From assembly GCF_001693815.1 (NCBI RefSeq), contig NZ_MBQD01000026.1:62001-126000 (forward strand): a stretch of DNA of 64,000 nt. The letters are read 5' to 3'. Below the pieces are notes generated by a model. The model was not told the DNA's origin. It searched no databases and was given only the letters and a program-made list of their open reading frames with translations. Origin of the DNA: Tessaracoccus lapidicaptus. GTDB lineage: Bacteria; Actinomycetota; Actinomycetes; Propionibacteriales; Propionibacteriaceae. This document shows positions 6,606-10,735 of this stretch, in pieces; within the stretch, counting starts at the first letter, position 1; every line of letters begins with the position of its first letter. Position numbers and translations under genes: made by a program.

Positions 6606-7148
6606 CGGGTCGTTCGCTCAGGTCGCGGCTGCCCGCCCGCTGAGGTCGCGCCTGCCTCGTTCGCTGAGGTCGCGGCGTCCCGTTCGCTGAGGTCGCGCCT
6701 GCCTCGTTCGCTGAGGTCGCGCCCGGTGCGCAGCACCCGGGCGAGTCTCGAAGCCGACGCCGCGGGCGTCGATCCCCCGACCCCATCGTTCGCTAAGGTC
6801 GGGGCGTCCCGTTCGCTGACGTCGCGCCCGGTGCGGAGCACCCGGGCGAGTCTCGAAGCCGACGCCACCCCGTTCGCTGAGGTCGCGCCCGGTGCGCAGC
6901 ACCCGGGCGAGCCTCGAAGCCGACGCCACCCCGCTCGCTGAGGTCGCGCCCGACGGCGGAGCCGTCCGGGCGAGCCTCGAAGCCGACGCCACCCCGCTCG
7001 CTGAGGTCGCGCCCGACGGCGGAGCCGTCCGGGCGAGTCTCGAAGCCGACGCCACCCCGCTCGCTGAGGTCGCGCCCGACGGCGGAGCCGTCCGGGCGAG
7101 TCTCGAAGCCGACGCCGCAGGCGTCGATCCCCCGACCCAATCAGCTCA
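6606..7148. repeat. Extragenic palindromic repeat array, left outer
   Basis: No gene. The array starts with about five copies of a 24-bp tandem unit (core GCTGAGGTCGCGCCTG), then about six units of 60-63 bp. Each unit holds the core GCTGAGGTCGCG, hairpin 1 (arms starting CGCCCG and ending CGGGCG) and the conserved GAGTCTCGAAG. Hairpin 1 has two alternative stems: GTGC/GCAC (at 6720-6743, 6825-6848 and 6886-6909) and ACGGC/GCCGT (6947-6972 and the next two units). Hairpin 2 (CGACGCC/GGCGTCG around a 3-base loop) closes two units at 6755-6771 and 7110-7126. Long open frames across it, such as one of 322 codons on the minus strand, are repeat artefacts. Confidence 0.9.
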
Positions 7149-7316
7149 AGGTGCGGGGAGCCGTGACCCGTCGCCCGGGCGGCCGTCGTGGTCCGGGGGC
7201 GTGCCGGTGAGGCGGCCCTGGCACGGGTCTGTCTAAGCGGGACGCCAGACGGGTGATCGTCGGGTTGGGCATCCCTGCGCGCGGCCGCCCCACCGTCTCG
7301 CCCCCTCGCGGGACAC
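7149..7316. repeat. Conserved block, left copy (inverted relative to 10198-10470)
   Basis: This is the reverse complement of most of 10198-10470, at an estimated 85-90% identity where they align. The left copy lacks about 105 bp present in the right. Two stems are visible: CGTGCC (7200-7205) with GGCACG (7220-7225), and GGGACGCC (7239-7246) with GGCATCCC (7268-7275). Both recur in the right copy. No coding frame is convincing. It may be a structured RNA or the core of a repeat element. Confidence 0.75.
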
Positions 7317-7510
7317 TCCCGTTCATTGAGGTCGCGCCTGCACCGTTCGCTGAGGTCGCGCCTGTCTCGCTCGCTGAGGTCGCGCCCGGTGCGAAGCACC
7401 CGGGCGAGTCTCGAAGCCGACGCCACCCCGCTCGCTGAGGTCGCGCCCGACGGCGGAGCCGTTCGGGCGAGTCTCGAAGCCGATGCCGCAGGCATCGTTC
7501 ACTCAGACAC
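7317..7510. repeat. Extragenic palindromic repeat array, left inner
   Basis: Three tandem GAGGTCGCG cores, then hairpin 1 at about 7386-7409 (GTGC/GCAC stem, GAA loop) and about 7446-7471 (ACGGC/GCCGT stem), and hairpin 2 at 7481-7497. In that last hairpin both arms are altered (CGATGCC with GGCATCG instead of CGACGCC with GGCGTCG), so pairing is kept. It ends just downstream of the formate/nitrite transporter stop. Confidence 0.88.
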
Positions 7511-7547
7511 CACCCTCCGAGCGCTCCTCTTCGCGGTGGCCCGGCTC

Positions 7548-8378
7548 TCAGCGGCCGGCGTCGCGCTTCGGGCGGAAGACCAGCCAGTAGAACAACCCGA
7601 TCATCAGGCCGCCCCCGATGATGTTGCCCAGCGTCACCGGGACCAGGTTGGCCGTGAGGAACGTCCACCATCCCAGGTGCTCGACCCCGGCCGGCGCCAA
7701 CTCCGGCTGGATGAAGATGGCCAGCGGAACCAGGAACATGTTGGCGACCGAGTGCTCGAATCCCGTGGCGACGAACAGCGCCACTGGGCCGACGAGGGCC
7801 ATGATCTTGTCGGTGGTCGTCCGCCCGGAGAACGCCGCCCACACCGCCAGGCACACCAGCAGATTGCACGCGACGCCGAGCGCCAGTGCCTCAATGAAAG
7901 AGTGGTCGAGCTTATGGCTCGCGGCGGCCAGCACCACCTGGCCCCACGCACCGTCGGCGCTGTGCTGGACGCCACCGAGAACCATCAGCGCCACGATGGT
8001 CAGGGCTCCCGCTGCATTGCCGAGGTACACCAGACCCCAGTGCCGGAGGAGCTTCCACCAGGACAGATGCCCTGACGCTTTGAGCATCAGCGTCATCGTG
8101 GTGGACGTGAAGAGGTCCGCTCCGGTCAGGACGACCAGGATCAGTCCGACGCTGAACACCACGCCACCCAGCAACTTGGCAACGCCCCACGGGAGTGCCT
8201 CGGCGCCGACCTGCGTCGTCACATAGAACACGAAACCGAGCGCGATGTAGCCGCCGCCGGTCAGGGAGAGCAGCAGAGTGCGCGGGACAGTCGCTTGTGC
8301 TTTATAGAGCATGGTGTCCTGCACGAGCCTGGCCATCTCGGCGGGTGTCGCCATCGCAATCGTTCGTTCGTCGCTCAC
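7548..8378 (-). CDS. focA: Formate/nitrite transporter (FNT) family channel
   Basis: A 276-residue inner-membrane protein with six or more hydrophobic spans. FVFYVTTQVG in TM1, GADLFTST, NLLVCLAVW and GFEHSVANMF are FNT landmarks; the His of the last motif is the gating and protonation residue in FocA/NirC. FNT pentamers pass formate or nitrite; which one cannot be decided here. A role in nitrite handling with the nitrate reductase island 25 kb away is inference. GTG at 8378 is preferred because a TAGTTT box lies 8 bp upstream; TTG at 8411 and ATG at 8354 are alternatives. Flanked by palindromic repeats at its 3' end. Confidence 0.88.
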   Translation of the reverse strand: MSDERTIAMATPAEMARLVQDTMLYKAQATVPRTLLLSLTGGGYIALGFVFYVTTQVGAEALPWGVAKLLGGVVFSVGLILVVLTGADLFTSTTMTLMLKASGHLSWWKLLRHWGLVYLGNAAGALTIVALMVLGGVQHSADGAWGQVVLAAASHKLDHSFIEALALGVACNLLVCLAVWAAFSGRTTTDKIMALVGPVALFVATGFEHSVANMFLVPLAIFIQPELAPAGVEHLGWWTFLTANLVPVTLGNIIGGGLMIGLFYWLVFRPKRDAGR

Positions 8379-8386
8379 GCGTGGAG

Positions 8387-8392
8387 AAACTA
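8387..8392 (-). promoter_or_regulatory. -10 box TAGTTT ahead of the FNT gene
   Basis: TAGTTT on the minus strand ends 8 bases before the GTG at 8378, implying a transcript with almost no leader. Confidence 0.45.
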
Positions 8393-8528
8393 GTGACGCG
8401 TGTTCCGACAACGACCGGGGGCGGGGTCACCATGCGCGGGGCGGTAATGCTAGGGCGGTCGTAGAAGATCCTGGCATCGGGTCGACGGCGACGCGTTTTT
8501 GTCAGTGGCCTCCGTAAGAATAGTGCAC

Positions 8529-9977
8529 ATGAGCGACTTGCGGGATCTCGGGCAGCGGCACCTCGCCGCGCTCTGGGACGCCGCGCGCTCCCTCACTCAG
8601 GATCCGGGCGCCGCGGCCCAGCGTCTCGCCACACTGGTCACCGCAGTCACCGAAGCCGAAGCCCAACTCGCCGGTCTACGCCTCCACCTGCTGCATGAGG
8701 CAAAGCTCGCCGCGGCGGAGGCCGTGATCGACGGGGTGCGGCAGTCGGTGCGCACCACGCCCGCCCAGGCCACCGCGAGCCTCCGCCTGGCCGCTGATCT
8801 GTGTGACCGGTTCCCGCTGATCGGCGCCGCCTTGAACGACGGCTTGATCTCATTGGCGCAGGCCGACGCCATCGTCACGGGCTTGCGGAAACTGCCCGGG
8901 CGATTGACCCGGGCGGAACTGACGCGTTGCGAGGAGGAGATCCTCGCCCACGTCGACACCCTGGGCCCCTCGGAACTGCGGGTGCTCGCGGCGCGGCTTG
9001 TGGAAGTGATCGACCCCGACGCATCGGACGCGGATGACGCGAAGCGCTTGGCGCGCGAGGAAGTGGCAGCGCATCGGGGCAGGTTCCTGCGGCTGGCGCC
9101 GGACTATCACGGCTCGATGCGCATCACCGGACAGTTGCCCGTCTCCGACGCGGCACTGCTGACCGCGCAACTGGACGCGTTGCTGCCCGACGCGTCCACC
9201 TACACCTCCGCCGGTGAGGCCGCGTCACGGGACGCGCGCCGCGCGGATGCGCTGGTCTTACTGATCCAGAAGGCCGCCTCCAGTGGCGCTCTGCCGGCGC
9301 ATGGTGGGGACAGGCCGCAGGTGCACGTCACCCTCGACCTCGACACCCTCAAGCAGGGCCTCGGGAAGGCCTGCCTGATCGGGGTCGACGACGTCGACGG
9401 CCTGTCCGCCGGGGAGGTCCGCCGATTGGCCTGCGACGCCGGCGTCATCCCTGTCGTGCTGGGCGGGCCATCCCGGCTGCTGGACGTGGGCCGCACCTAC
9501 CGCATGTTCACCCCCGGCCTGCGCGCCGCGCTGGTGCAGCGCGACGGTGGGTGCGCGTTCCCCGGCTGTGCGGCGACCCCGGCGTGTTGTGAGGCGCATC
9601 ACATCGTGCCGTGGTGGCAGGGCGGTGTCACGCGGCTTGGCAACGGGGTATTGCTCTGTCCGCACCACCACCGCCTGGTGGAACCGGATCCGTTGCAGTC
9701 CGAGGCGTCGCAGTGGCGGGTGGATCTGGATCCGATCACCGGGCTGCCGTGGTTCACCCCGCCCAAGCATGTTGATCCCGCGCGGCGGCCGCGGCAGCAT
9801 CGACGCTTCCGACTCCGACAGATCCAGGCCGGGGCACCACCATGCCCAGACCCCGACCCACCCGACGCTGACCCGCCGGACGTCCACCCTCCCGAGACGG
9901 AGTTGTCCGCCGCCGGCCGGCCGGACCTGGATGATCTCATCCGCCGCTCCGCCGCCATCTGGGGCGACGGCACCTGA
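8529..9977 (+). CDS. DUF222 / HNH endonuclease, 13E12 repeat family
   Basis: A 482-residue protein. Residues 1-310 form the helical DUF222 region. The C-terminal part has an HNH nuclease motif with zinc-binding cysteines: CAFPGC, then HHIVPWWQGG, then LCPHHH (roughly residues 340-385). An acidic Pro/Asp-rich tail follows. The family is common and multicopy in actinobacteria; it is the protein part of the REP13E12 repeats of mycobacteria, and its job is unknown. ATG at 8529 is chosen (AAGAAT box 7 bases upstream); TTG at 8499 would add 10 residues. It sits between two inverted copies of the palindromic repeat system, which suggests a link to repeat spread or maintenance. Confidence 0.85.
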   Translation: MSDLRDLGQRHLAALWDAARSLTQDPGAAAQRLATLVTAVTEAEAQLAGLRLHLLHEAKLAAAEAVIDGVRQSVRTTPAQATASLRLAADLCDRFPLIGAALNDGLISLAQADAIVTGLRKLPGRLTRAELTRCEEEILAHVDTLGPSELRVLAARLVEVIDPDASDADDAKRLAREEVAAHRGRFLRLAPDYHGSMRITGQLPVSDAALLTAQLDALLPDASTYTSAGEAASRDARRADALVLLIQKAASSGALPAHGGDRPQVHVTLDLDTLKQGLGKACLIGVDDVDGLSAGEVRRLACDAGVIPVVLGGPSRLLDVGRTYRMFTPGLRAALVQRDGGCAFPGCAATPACCEAHHIVPWWQGGVTRLGNGVLLCPHHHRLVEPDPLQSEASQWRVDLDPITGLPWFTPPKHVDPARRPRQHRRFRLRQIQAGAPPCPDPDPPDADPPDVHPPETELSAAGRPDLDDLIRRSAAIWGDGT

Positions 9978-10197
9978 CCTGCGCCGTCTGGGGGATCGAC
10001 GCCTGCGGCGTCGGCTTCGAGACTCGCCCGGACGGCTGCGCCGTCGGGCGCGACCTCAGCGAGCGGGGTTGGGGGATCGACGCCTGCGGCGTCGACTTCG
10101 AGACTCGCCCGGACGGCTGCGCCGTCGGGCGCGACCTCAGCGAACGGATGGGCGCGACCTCAGCGAGCGGGGCCTGCGCGGCGACGCAGTCGGAGGC
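9978..10197. repeat. Extragenic palindromic repeat array, right inner
   Basis: Two nearly identical units in the opposite orientation to the left arrays. Each holds hairpin 2 (CGACGCC, loop TGC, GGCGTCG; first at 9997-10013), GCTTCGAGACT, hairpin 1 with the ACGGC-type stem (first at about 10025-10050, loop TGC), and the core CGCGACCTCAGCGA. The array begins at the stop codon of the HNH gene. Confidence 0.88.
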
Positions 10198-10470
10198 GTT
10201 CCCGCGAGGGGGTGGGACGGTGGGGCGGCTGCGCGCAGGGACGCCCAACCCGACGATCACCCCACTGGCGTCCCGCCTAGACAAACCCGTGCCAGGGCCG
10301 CCCCGCCGGCACGCACCCGGACCCGGCCACGCCACCGCCGAAACATGTGTGGGGAGACGGGAACCGACGCTCGGGCGGCCTCGACTACTCACCCCCAGCC
10401 AGTCGGTCAGCCAAACAGGGCACCCGGCGACAAAGGCCGCCCGAGCGACGGGTCACGGCTCCCCGCACCT
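10198..10470. repeat. Conserved block, right copy
   Basis: Inverted copy of 7149-7316 with about 105 extra bases near 10330-10435. It keeps the stems GGGACGCC (10238-10245) with GGCGTCCC (10267-10274) and CGTGCC (10288-10293) with GGCACG (10308-10313). The left copy differs in the first stem by a C-to-T change that still pairs (G-U). No protein-coding signal is seen. Confidence 0.75.
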
Positions 10471-10735
10471 TCAGAGGATGGGGTCAAGGGATCGACGCCT
10501 ACGGCGTCGGCTTCGAGACTCGCCCGGGTGCTGCGCACCGGGCGCGACCTCAGCGAACGGACAGGCGCGACCTCAGCGAACGATGCAGGCGCGACCTCAG
10601 CGTACGGTGCAGGCGCGACCTCAGCGAACGATGCAGGCGCGACCTCAGCGAACGGGAAGGCGCGACCTATGCGAACGGTGCACGCGCGACGTTAGCGAGC
10701 GGGCGGGTGCGACCTCAGGGGGCGGTGGGGCGCGG
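10471..10735. repeat. Extragenic palindromic repeat array, right outer
   Basis: One full unit: hairpin 2 with loop TAC near 10490-10510, then hairpin 1 of the GGTGC/GCACC type near 10520-10545. About seven tandem units of 24 bp follow (core GCGCGACCTCAGCGAACG), decaying towards 10720. The array lies upstream of the patatin gene. Confidence 0.85.

Follow-up and report, generated by a model that had tools for sequence, protein, structure and literature searches.

Repetitive extragenic palindromes (REPs) rank with the most abundant repeats of bacteria, and two classes of them, GTAG and CGTC REPs, were defined by Di Nocera and co-workers (PMC3733652). GTAG-type REPs are tagged palindromes present in many copies, and they also form REPtrons, single-gene units placed within inverted REPs, with a different family for each enzyme (PMC3733652). 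A dedicated enzyme, the REP-associated tyrosine transposase (RAYT), is known for the GTAG class, but none was given for the CGTC class in the 2013 survey, which describes CGTC repeats as lacking any association with transposase genes and apparently also a transposase of their own (PMC3733652). Neither GIY-YIG nucleases nor Actinobacteria are mentioned in that survey (PMC3733652). Here, we deal with palindromic repeats in a stretch of 64,000 nucleotides of Tessaracoccus lapidicaptus (hereafter the window), which corresponds to C26:62001-126000 of a 3.09-Mb draft genome. Like GTAG REPs, the repeats of the window are short, tagged and present in many copies, and their stems vary while pairing is kept. 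They are probably REP-like elements of a "REPtron" whose enzyme is a small GIY-YIG protein, and this nuclease is the candidate for spreading them. The actinobacterial families described here are absent from the 2013 survey.

First, both small GIY-YIG genes of this genome lie within their own inverted repeat arrays. One of them (C26:127300) is located 1.3 kb past the end of the window and is enclosed by inverted arrays of the window family (C26:126674-127763); positions 10202-10607 of the window match the left end of this unit with 87% identity. The encoded protein of ~95 amino acids (aa) has a GIY-YIG domain (PF01541, E 3e-13), and its best match in the PDB is the UPF0213 protein BH0048 (1zg2, E 2.8e-13). 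In this respect it resembles the UPF0213/YhbQ-YazA proteins (PDB 1zg2, 1ywl), which are stand-alone GIY-YIG domains of ~95 aa and for which, to our knowledge, no function has been established. Y15, G17, R25 and E62 are invariant in ten aligned proteins, and the catalytic Tyr, Arg and Glu are conserved. The second gene (C1:29767) is surrounded by inverted arrays that belong to another family, CCCTGAGG..TCTCGAAGGG (CCCTGAGGAGG..CCGTCTCGAAGGG), with an inverted repeat of 337 bits. As in REPtrons, a single enzyme gene is enclosed by inverted cognate repeats, and separate families go with separate enzymes in one genome. Unlike RAYT REPtrons, however, the enclosed gene encodes a GIY-YIG protein, the tag is GAG/TCGA instead of GTAG, and a Y1/HUH transposase is missing. 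A RAYT-type transposase had been suggested in the preliminary description of this DNA, but a search for Y1 (HUH) transposases (PF01797) found none in 39 Tessaracoccus genomes, this one and 38 relatives, with positive results in control genomes. RAYT as the enzyme of these repeats is ruled out by this result.

The same arrangement is found in other Actinomycetota. Upstream and downstream flanks of GIY-YIG genes were compared for inverted repeats with a cut-off of 37 bits, and UvrC-type GIY-YIG genes from the same genome sets served as an internal control. Of the small GIY-YIG loci, 31 were testable, and 24 of these have inverted repeats of at least 37 bits; none of the 48 UvrC-type loci does. 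For seven genomes the repeat density was known; there, 10 small GIY-YIG loci have 39 repeats (1.1 expected), and 15 UvrC-type loci have 0 (1.9 expected). Genomes having two small GIY-YIG genes (G000, G334, G309 and G453) use a different repeat family at each gene in all four cases examined.

Comparison of these families gave a general frame, N4-GAG-[hairpin]-TCGA-N4', in which, across Propionibacteriales, the tags are fixed and both the inner stem and the outer arms covary strongly. The frame has the conserved foot tag and the variable paired stem by which REPs are recognized. When GAG-hairpin-TCGA was sought and outer pairing was not demanded, at least four outer pairs were found in 63 of 99 matches at small GIY-YIG loci, with a two-peaked distribution. 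At UvrC-type loci the figure is 1 of 43, and altered tags give 0-2. Sampled genome sequence of 1.6 Mb has 43 such matches among 383, where ~1.5 would be expected. The outer stems at small GIY-YIG loci include GGTT/AACC, GGTC/GACC, CCCT/AGGG, CGTC/GACG and GATC/GATC, and that of the window family has three pairs, GCT/AGC. In Propionibacteriales, the pattern GTTGAGG-N8..38-TCTCGAAA reaches up to 357 copies per genome, with 0 for the reversed control in those genomes, and its copies bear many different complementary stems. A phylum-wide search for GGTTGAG..CTCGAAACC gave mostly chance matches because the sample was too broad. Covariation was evaluated on 20 distinct repeats from Nocardioidaceae and their relatives, picked without regard to pairing. 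Two-sided changes occur in all six stem pairs, and the covariation score is 0.543, compared with 0.195 +/- 0.040 for shuffled sets (0 of 500 reach the observed value) and 0.096 or less when slid. The repeats of the window belong to this large family of bacterial hairpin repeats, in which little but the pairing is conserved. By eye, a tandem sheared G.A is a possible meaning of the GAG/TCGA tag, but folding favours a 2-nt bulge over it.

Outside Actinomycetota, the GIY-YIG sample consisted of plasmids, chromids and mislabelled chromosomes from a plasmid collection. The GAG/TCGA frame was read by eye in Methylobacterium and Sphingomonas parapaucimobilis (CCTGAGG..CCTCGAAGG; GGCTGAGCGAAGTCGAAGCC). 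CGTC REPs, including Neisseria dRS3, differ from the window family in their terminal CGTC, TGTC or CCTC, which the GAG/TCGA-bearing window family lacks, and resemble it in that, in this analysis, small GIY-YIG genes were found between inverted copies of these hairpin repeats. With a simple detector, 11 of 25 GIY-YIG genes proved to have CGTC-type REPs upstream as well as downstream, mostly inverted; in several cases the upstream REP is ~73-87 bp and the downstream REP 77-80 bp away from the gene. As controls, 50-kb stretches were taken from five of these replicons, and they contain 0-5 CGTC-type REPs. Genes flanked in this way come from Sphingobium, Rhizobium, Shinella, Neorhizobium, Azospirillum, Novosphingobium, Aeromonas and Neisseria. 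In the suf operon of Azospirillum lipoferum, for example, a GIY-YIG gene between two REP dimers occupies ~575-580 bp between sufB and sufC. The sufB-sufC gap is 41 bp in A. oryzae and 54 bp in A. ramasamyi, and because of this empty site the REP-GIY-REP structure of A. lipoferum behaves as an inserted unit. The association between hairpins and GIY-YIG genes is internally controlled in Actinomycetota and coarser in Proteobacteria. Closely related Sphingobium plasmids also appear to differ in the presence of REP-GIY-REP between fnrL and a response-regulator gene. On a Planktothrix agardhii plasmid (L433), TGTC-type repeats occur near a GIY-YIG gene that sits between a gene for an MmeI-type restriction enzyme and DISARM drmA, surroundings that look like a defence island.

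From the REPtron-like layout, the family specificity and the one empty site, we infer that the tag is read by the nuclease, which would mobilise or maintain the repeats. We lean slightly towards a still wider proposal, that small GIY-YIG proteins are the dedicated partners of RAYT-less REPs, both CGTC-tagged (Proteobacteria and others) and GAG/TCGA-tagged (Actinomycetota and Methylobacterium), with recognition of the tag driving the spread; if this is true, the system would be an independent, nuclease-based counterpart to the REP-RAYT system. In the repeats described here, invariant GAG (5') and TCGA (3') mark the foot of the hairpin; the stem-loop on the inside and the short stem on the outside of these tags both vary freely provided that pairing holds. 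Each repeat family is centred on a small (~95-105 aa) UPF0213-like GIY-YIG gene within inverted copies. The nuclease may recognize the tagged hairpin in extruded or single-stranded form and cut it at the foot, and copying via replication or recombination could then generate single hairpins, arrays, and gene units between inverted arrays. The fixed tags and the covarying stem predict which bases the enzyme should read. A GIY-YIG protein with its own cognate repeat per gene is a testable candidate enzyme, and the proposal would give a very common family of uncharacterised proteins a likely function. A search of the open-access literature yielded no publication that connects GIY-YIG to REPs, RAYT or intergenic palindromes, although earlier publication elsewhere is possible.

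Several points weigh against the nuclease as the spreader. What has been observed is association, and mobilisation is deduced from it, no transposition having been seen; no target-site duplication was identified either. The majority of copies in this genome flank DUF222-HNH genes rather than GIY-YIG genes. Small and UvrC-type genes were separated by the length of the open frame, and the split is not sharp, since open frames of 332 and 399 aa were counted as small and one 481 aa locus was left out. The main weakness is that, in the small sample compared, gene and repeats do not strictly track each other: two of eight genomes without a small GIY-YIG gene carry repeats, and few repeats were found in 100 kb of several genomes possessing one, both comparisons being of low power. 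Flanking repeats are missing at the small GIY-YIG genes of G017, G005, Cupriavidus, Variovorax and Acidiphilium, and at yazA of B. subtilis, which in this differs from the small GIY-YIG genes described here. In two Tessaracoccus genomes (G015 and G038; samples L339-L418), GGTT-type tagged hairpins are abundant and a small GIY-YIG gene was undetected; these hairpins are possibly orphan families.

Such repeats in genomes where no small GIY-YIG gene was detected would be expected if GIY-YIG and DUF222-HNH genes were only passengers, homing-type or neutral genes settling in repeat-rich intergenic DNA, and if the repeats spread otherwise, by recombination or replication slippage. Tandem half-units and chimeric hairpins in the arrays (see below) do reveal local duplication and recombination shaping them. 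However, mere settling does not predict the near-constant distance and inverted placement of repeats on both sides of the nuclease gene, nor two nucleases of one genome each with a repeat family of its own, nor the REP-poor control stretches, and we regard this explanation as unlikely.

The DUF222-HNH genes need separate consideration. The copy in the window (8529..9977, + strand) encodes a nuclease of the 13E12-repeat family (PF02720, E 5e-33; HNH, E 9e-5) with intact HNH residues. It is one of 11 near-full copies in the genome, which share 85-92% protein identity and are mostly intact; differences among them by codon position are 696/400/1916, and this concentration at third positions indicates purifying selection. 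The REP13E12/13E12 family of Mycobacterium is likewise a multi-copy DUF222-HNH gene (PF02720), but the copies of this genome are embedded in inverted tagged-hairpin arrays, and the comparison with Mycobacterium is one of gene family. In M. tuberculosis, REP13E12 is the integration site of phage phiRv1. Between the copies of this genome, BLAST similarity is limited to the gene and the arrays. The left arm of the C26:127300 GIY-YIG unit is 80-88% identical to arms of all 11 DUF222 units over 359-625 bp, so that, judged by sequence, the DUF222 units look like the terminal structure of the GIY-YIG unit around another gene. Terminal arms may thus have captured DUF222-HNH genes in this genome, which would have given ~11 same-armed units, one of them in the window. 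The window unit is a derived case, a DUF222-HNH gene within arms typical of the GIY-YIG unit, altered by a transporter gene. Only in the window copy does this formate/nitrite transporter gene (7548..8411, - strand; PF01226, E 1.2e-73) separate the left arrays from the DUF222 gene (7548-8529). Similarity of the window copy to the others starts ~30 bp before the ATG, and therefore its upstream region has been replaced.

It might instead be the DUF222-HNH protein that moves the arrays, the unit being of the 13E12 type, with hairpin arrays as its long inverted ends. Indeed, all 11 near-full copies here bear arrays with near-constant inner spacing, and in six other genomes of Propionibacteriales (five Nocardioidaceae and G414) 25 repeats are found at 30 DUF222 loci versus 3.5 expected. 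This association is weaker than that of the small GIY-YIG genes. In addition, the DUF222 genes of other Tessaracoccus genomes (G022, G012 and G013) have multiplied with no arrays around them, and among 14 control genomes DUF222 occurs in Corynebacterium only, yet similar REPs flank GIY-YIG genes in Proteobacteria. Since the GIY-YIG unit of this genome also has the same arms as the DUF222 units, mobilisation by the DUF222-HNH protein is improbable. A universal link between DUF222 genes and arrays was ruled out, as inverted repeats are missing at most DUF222 loci of other genomes. In G022 (L184-L190), some of the array-free DUF222-HNH copies share ~300 bp upstream of the gene.

Selection of the hairpins as RNA elements, for example at transcript 3' ends or for stability, would account for the predicted hairpins and the strong stem covariation, but it is very improbable, because the repeats have no Rfam family (Rfam models matched tRNAs alone in the window), no evidence for the functional folded RNA considered in the preliminary description was found, and many-copy arrays, inverted pairing round single genes and conserved tags suit a DNA-processing substrate better.

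Returning to the GIY-YIG-associated repeats themselves, the exact 13-nt core CGAAGCCGAYGCC occurs in 99 copies in the 3.09 Mb, compared with 3 for the reversed control, and 96 full units of hairpin 1, a short palindrome, were extracted genome-wide. These numbers exclude a chance origin. Nine core matches outside the arrays appear to be chance since the full unit was not found there. Most units belong to the inverted arrays enclosing the 11 near-full DUF222-HNH genes. Hairpin 1 had been described with two inner stems, GTGC/GCAC (type A) and ACGGC/GCCGT (type B), in a common CGCCCG..CGGGCG frame with a bulged C, and hairpin 2 as CGACGCC/GGCGTCG with a single CGATGCC/GGCATCG copy; all of these are present in the window. 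It had also been proposed that both arms change together. This is correct across genomes, where covariation is significant, although only when many genomes are pooled (the 20 distinct repeats above). In this genome, on the other hand, no two-armed stem change is found within cassette A (31 units) or cassette B (60 units), and every stem change inside both cassettes is one-armed, the pattern which the preliminary description itself had named as speaking against its proposal. There are also two A/B chimeras having one arm of each type (C24:209751 and C25:129602). The one-armed changes and the chimeras mean that the A/B contrast is a swap between two ready-made hairpins, with recombination between cassettes; stepwise compensatory point mutation in this genome is thereby ruled out. 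The double change in hairpin 2 is unique genome-wide. The idea that the repeats are REP-like and that the hairpin behaves as a unit has held.

The two types are distributed differently. Within 2.5 kb of DUF222 units lie 57 of 61 type B hairpins and 16 of 32 type A hairpins (Fisher P = 3e-6), and type A is what most gene-less arrays contain and what surrounds the GIY-YIG gene. Type B hairpins may thus have spread along with the DUF222 units, with type A staying with the nuclease gene and the gene-less arrays. Six gene-less arrays were noted (C2:103k, C21:93k, C22:40.7k, C22:58.8k, C24:166.8k and C25:30k), and in this small sample (n=6) all are on the same strand relative to their contigs.

In the window, 6610-7505 and 9987-10718 are mutually inverted arrays with the transporter and DUF222-HNH genes between them, an arrangement missed in the preliminary description; the arrays sit between genes. 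The left outer array (6610..7139, +) is built from 24-nt tandem half-units (CGYTCGCTGAGGTCGCGCC) and contains type A hairpins starting at 6713, 6818 and 6879, type B hairpins at 6940, 7003 and 7066, and two copies of hairpin 2 (~6755-6771 and 7110-7126). A conserved block (7150..7313, +), whose inverted partner is at ~10200-10476, separates it from the left inner array (7317..7505, +), which has half-units, type A at 7376, type B at 7437 and the hairpin 2 variant at 7481-7497. On the right side, the inverted inner array (9987..10182, -) consists of two type B units (10013 and 10094), hairpin 2 and half-units. It is followed by the inverted copy of the conserved block (10200..10476, -), in which 10200-10323 is 91% identical to 7190-7313 and a further block extends to 10476, and by the right outer array (10485..10718, -) with hairpin 2, a type A unit at 10509 and a run of tandem half-units. 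The conserved block is found also in the GIY-YIG unit and in the remaining DUF222 units, and a related-looking block (GGTGGGGCCGGG..) is present elsewhere in Tessaracoccus (L081, L085 and L197).

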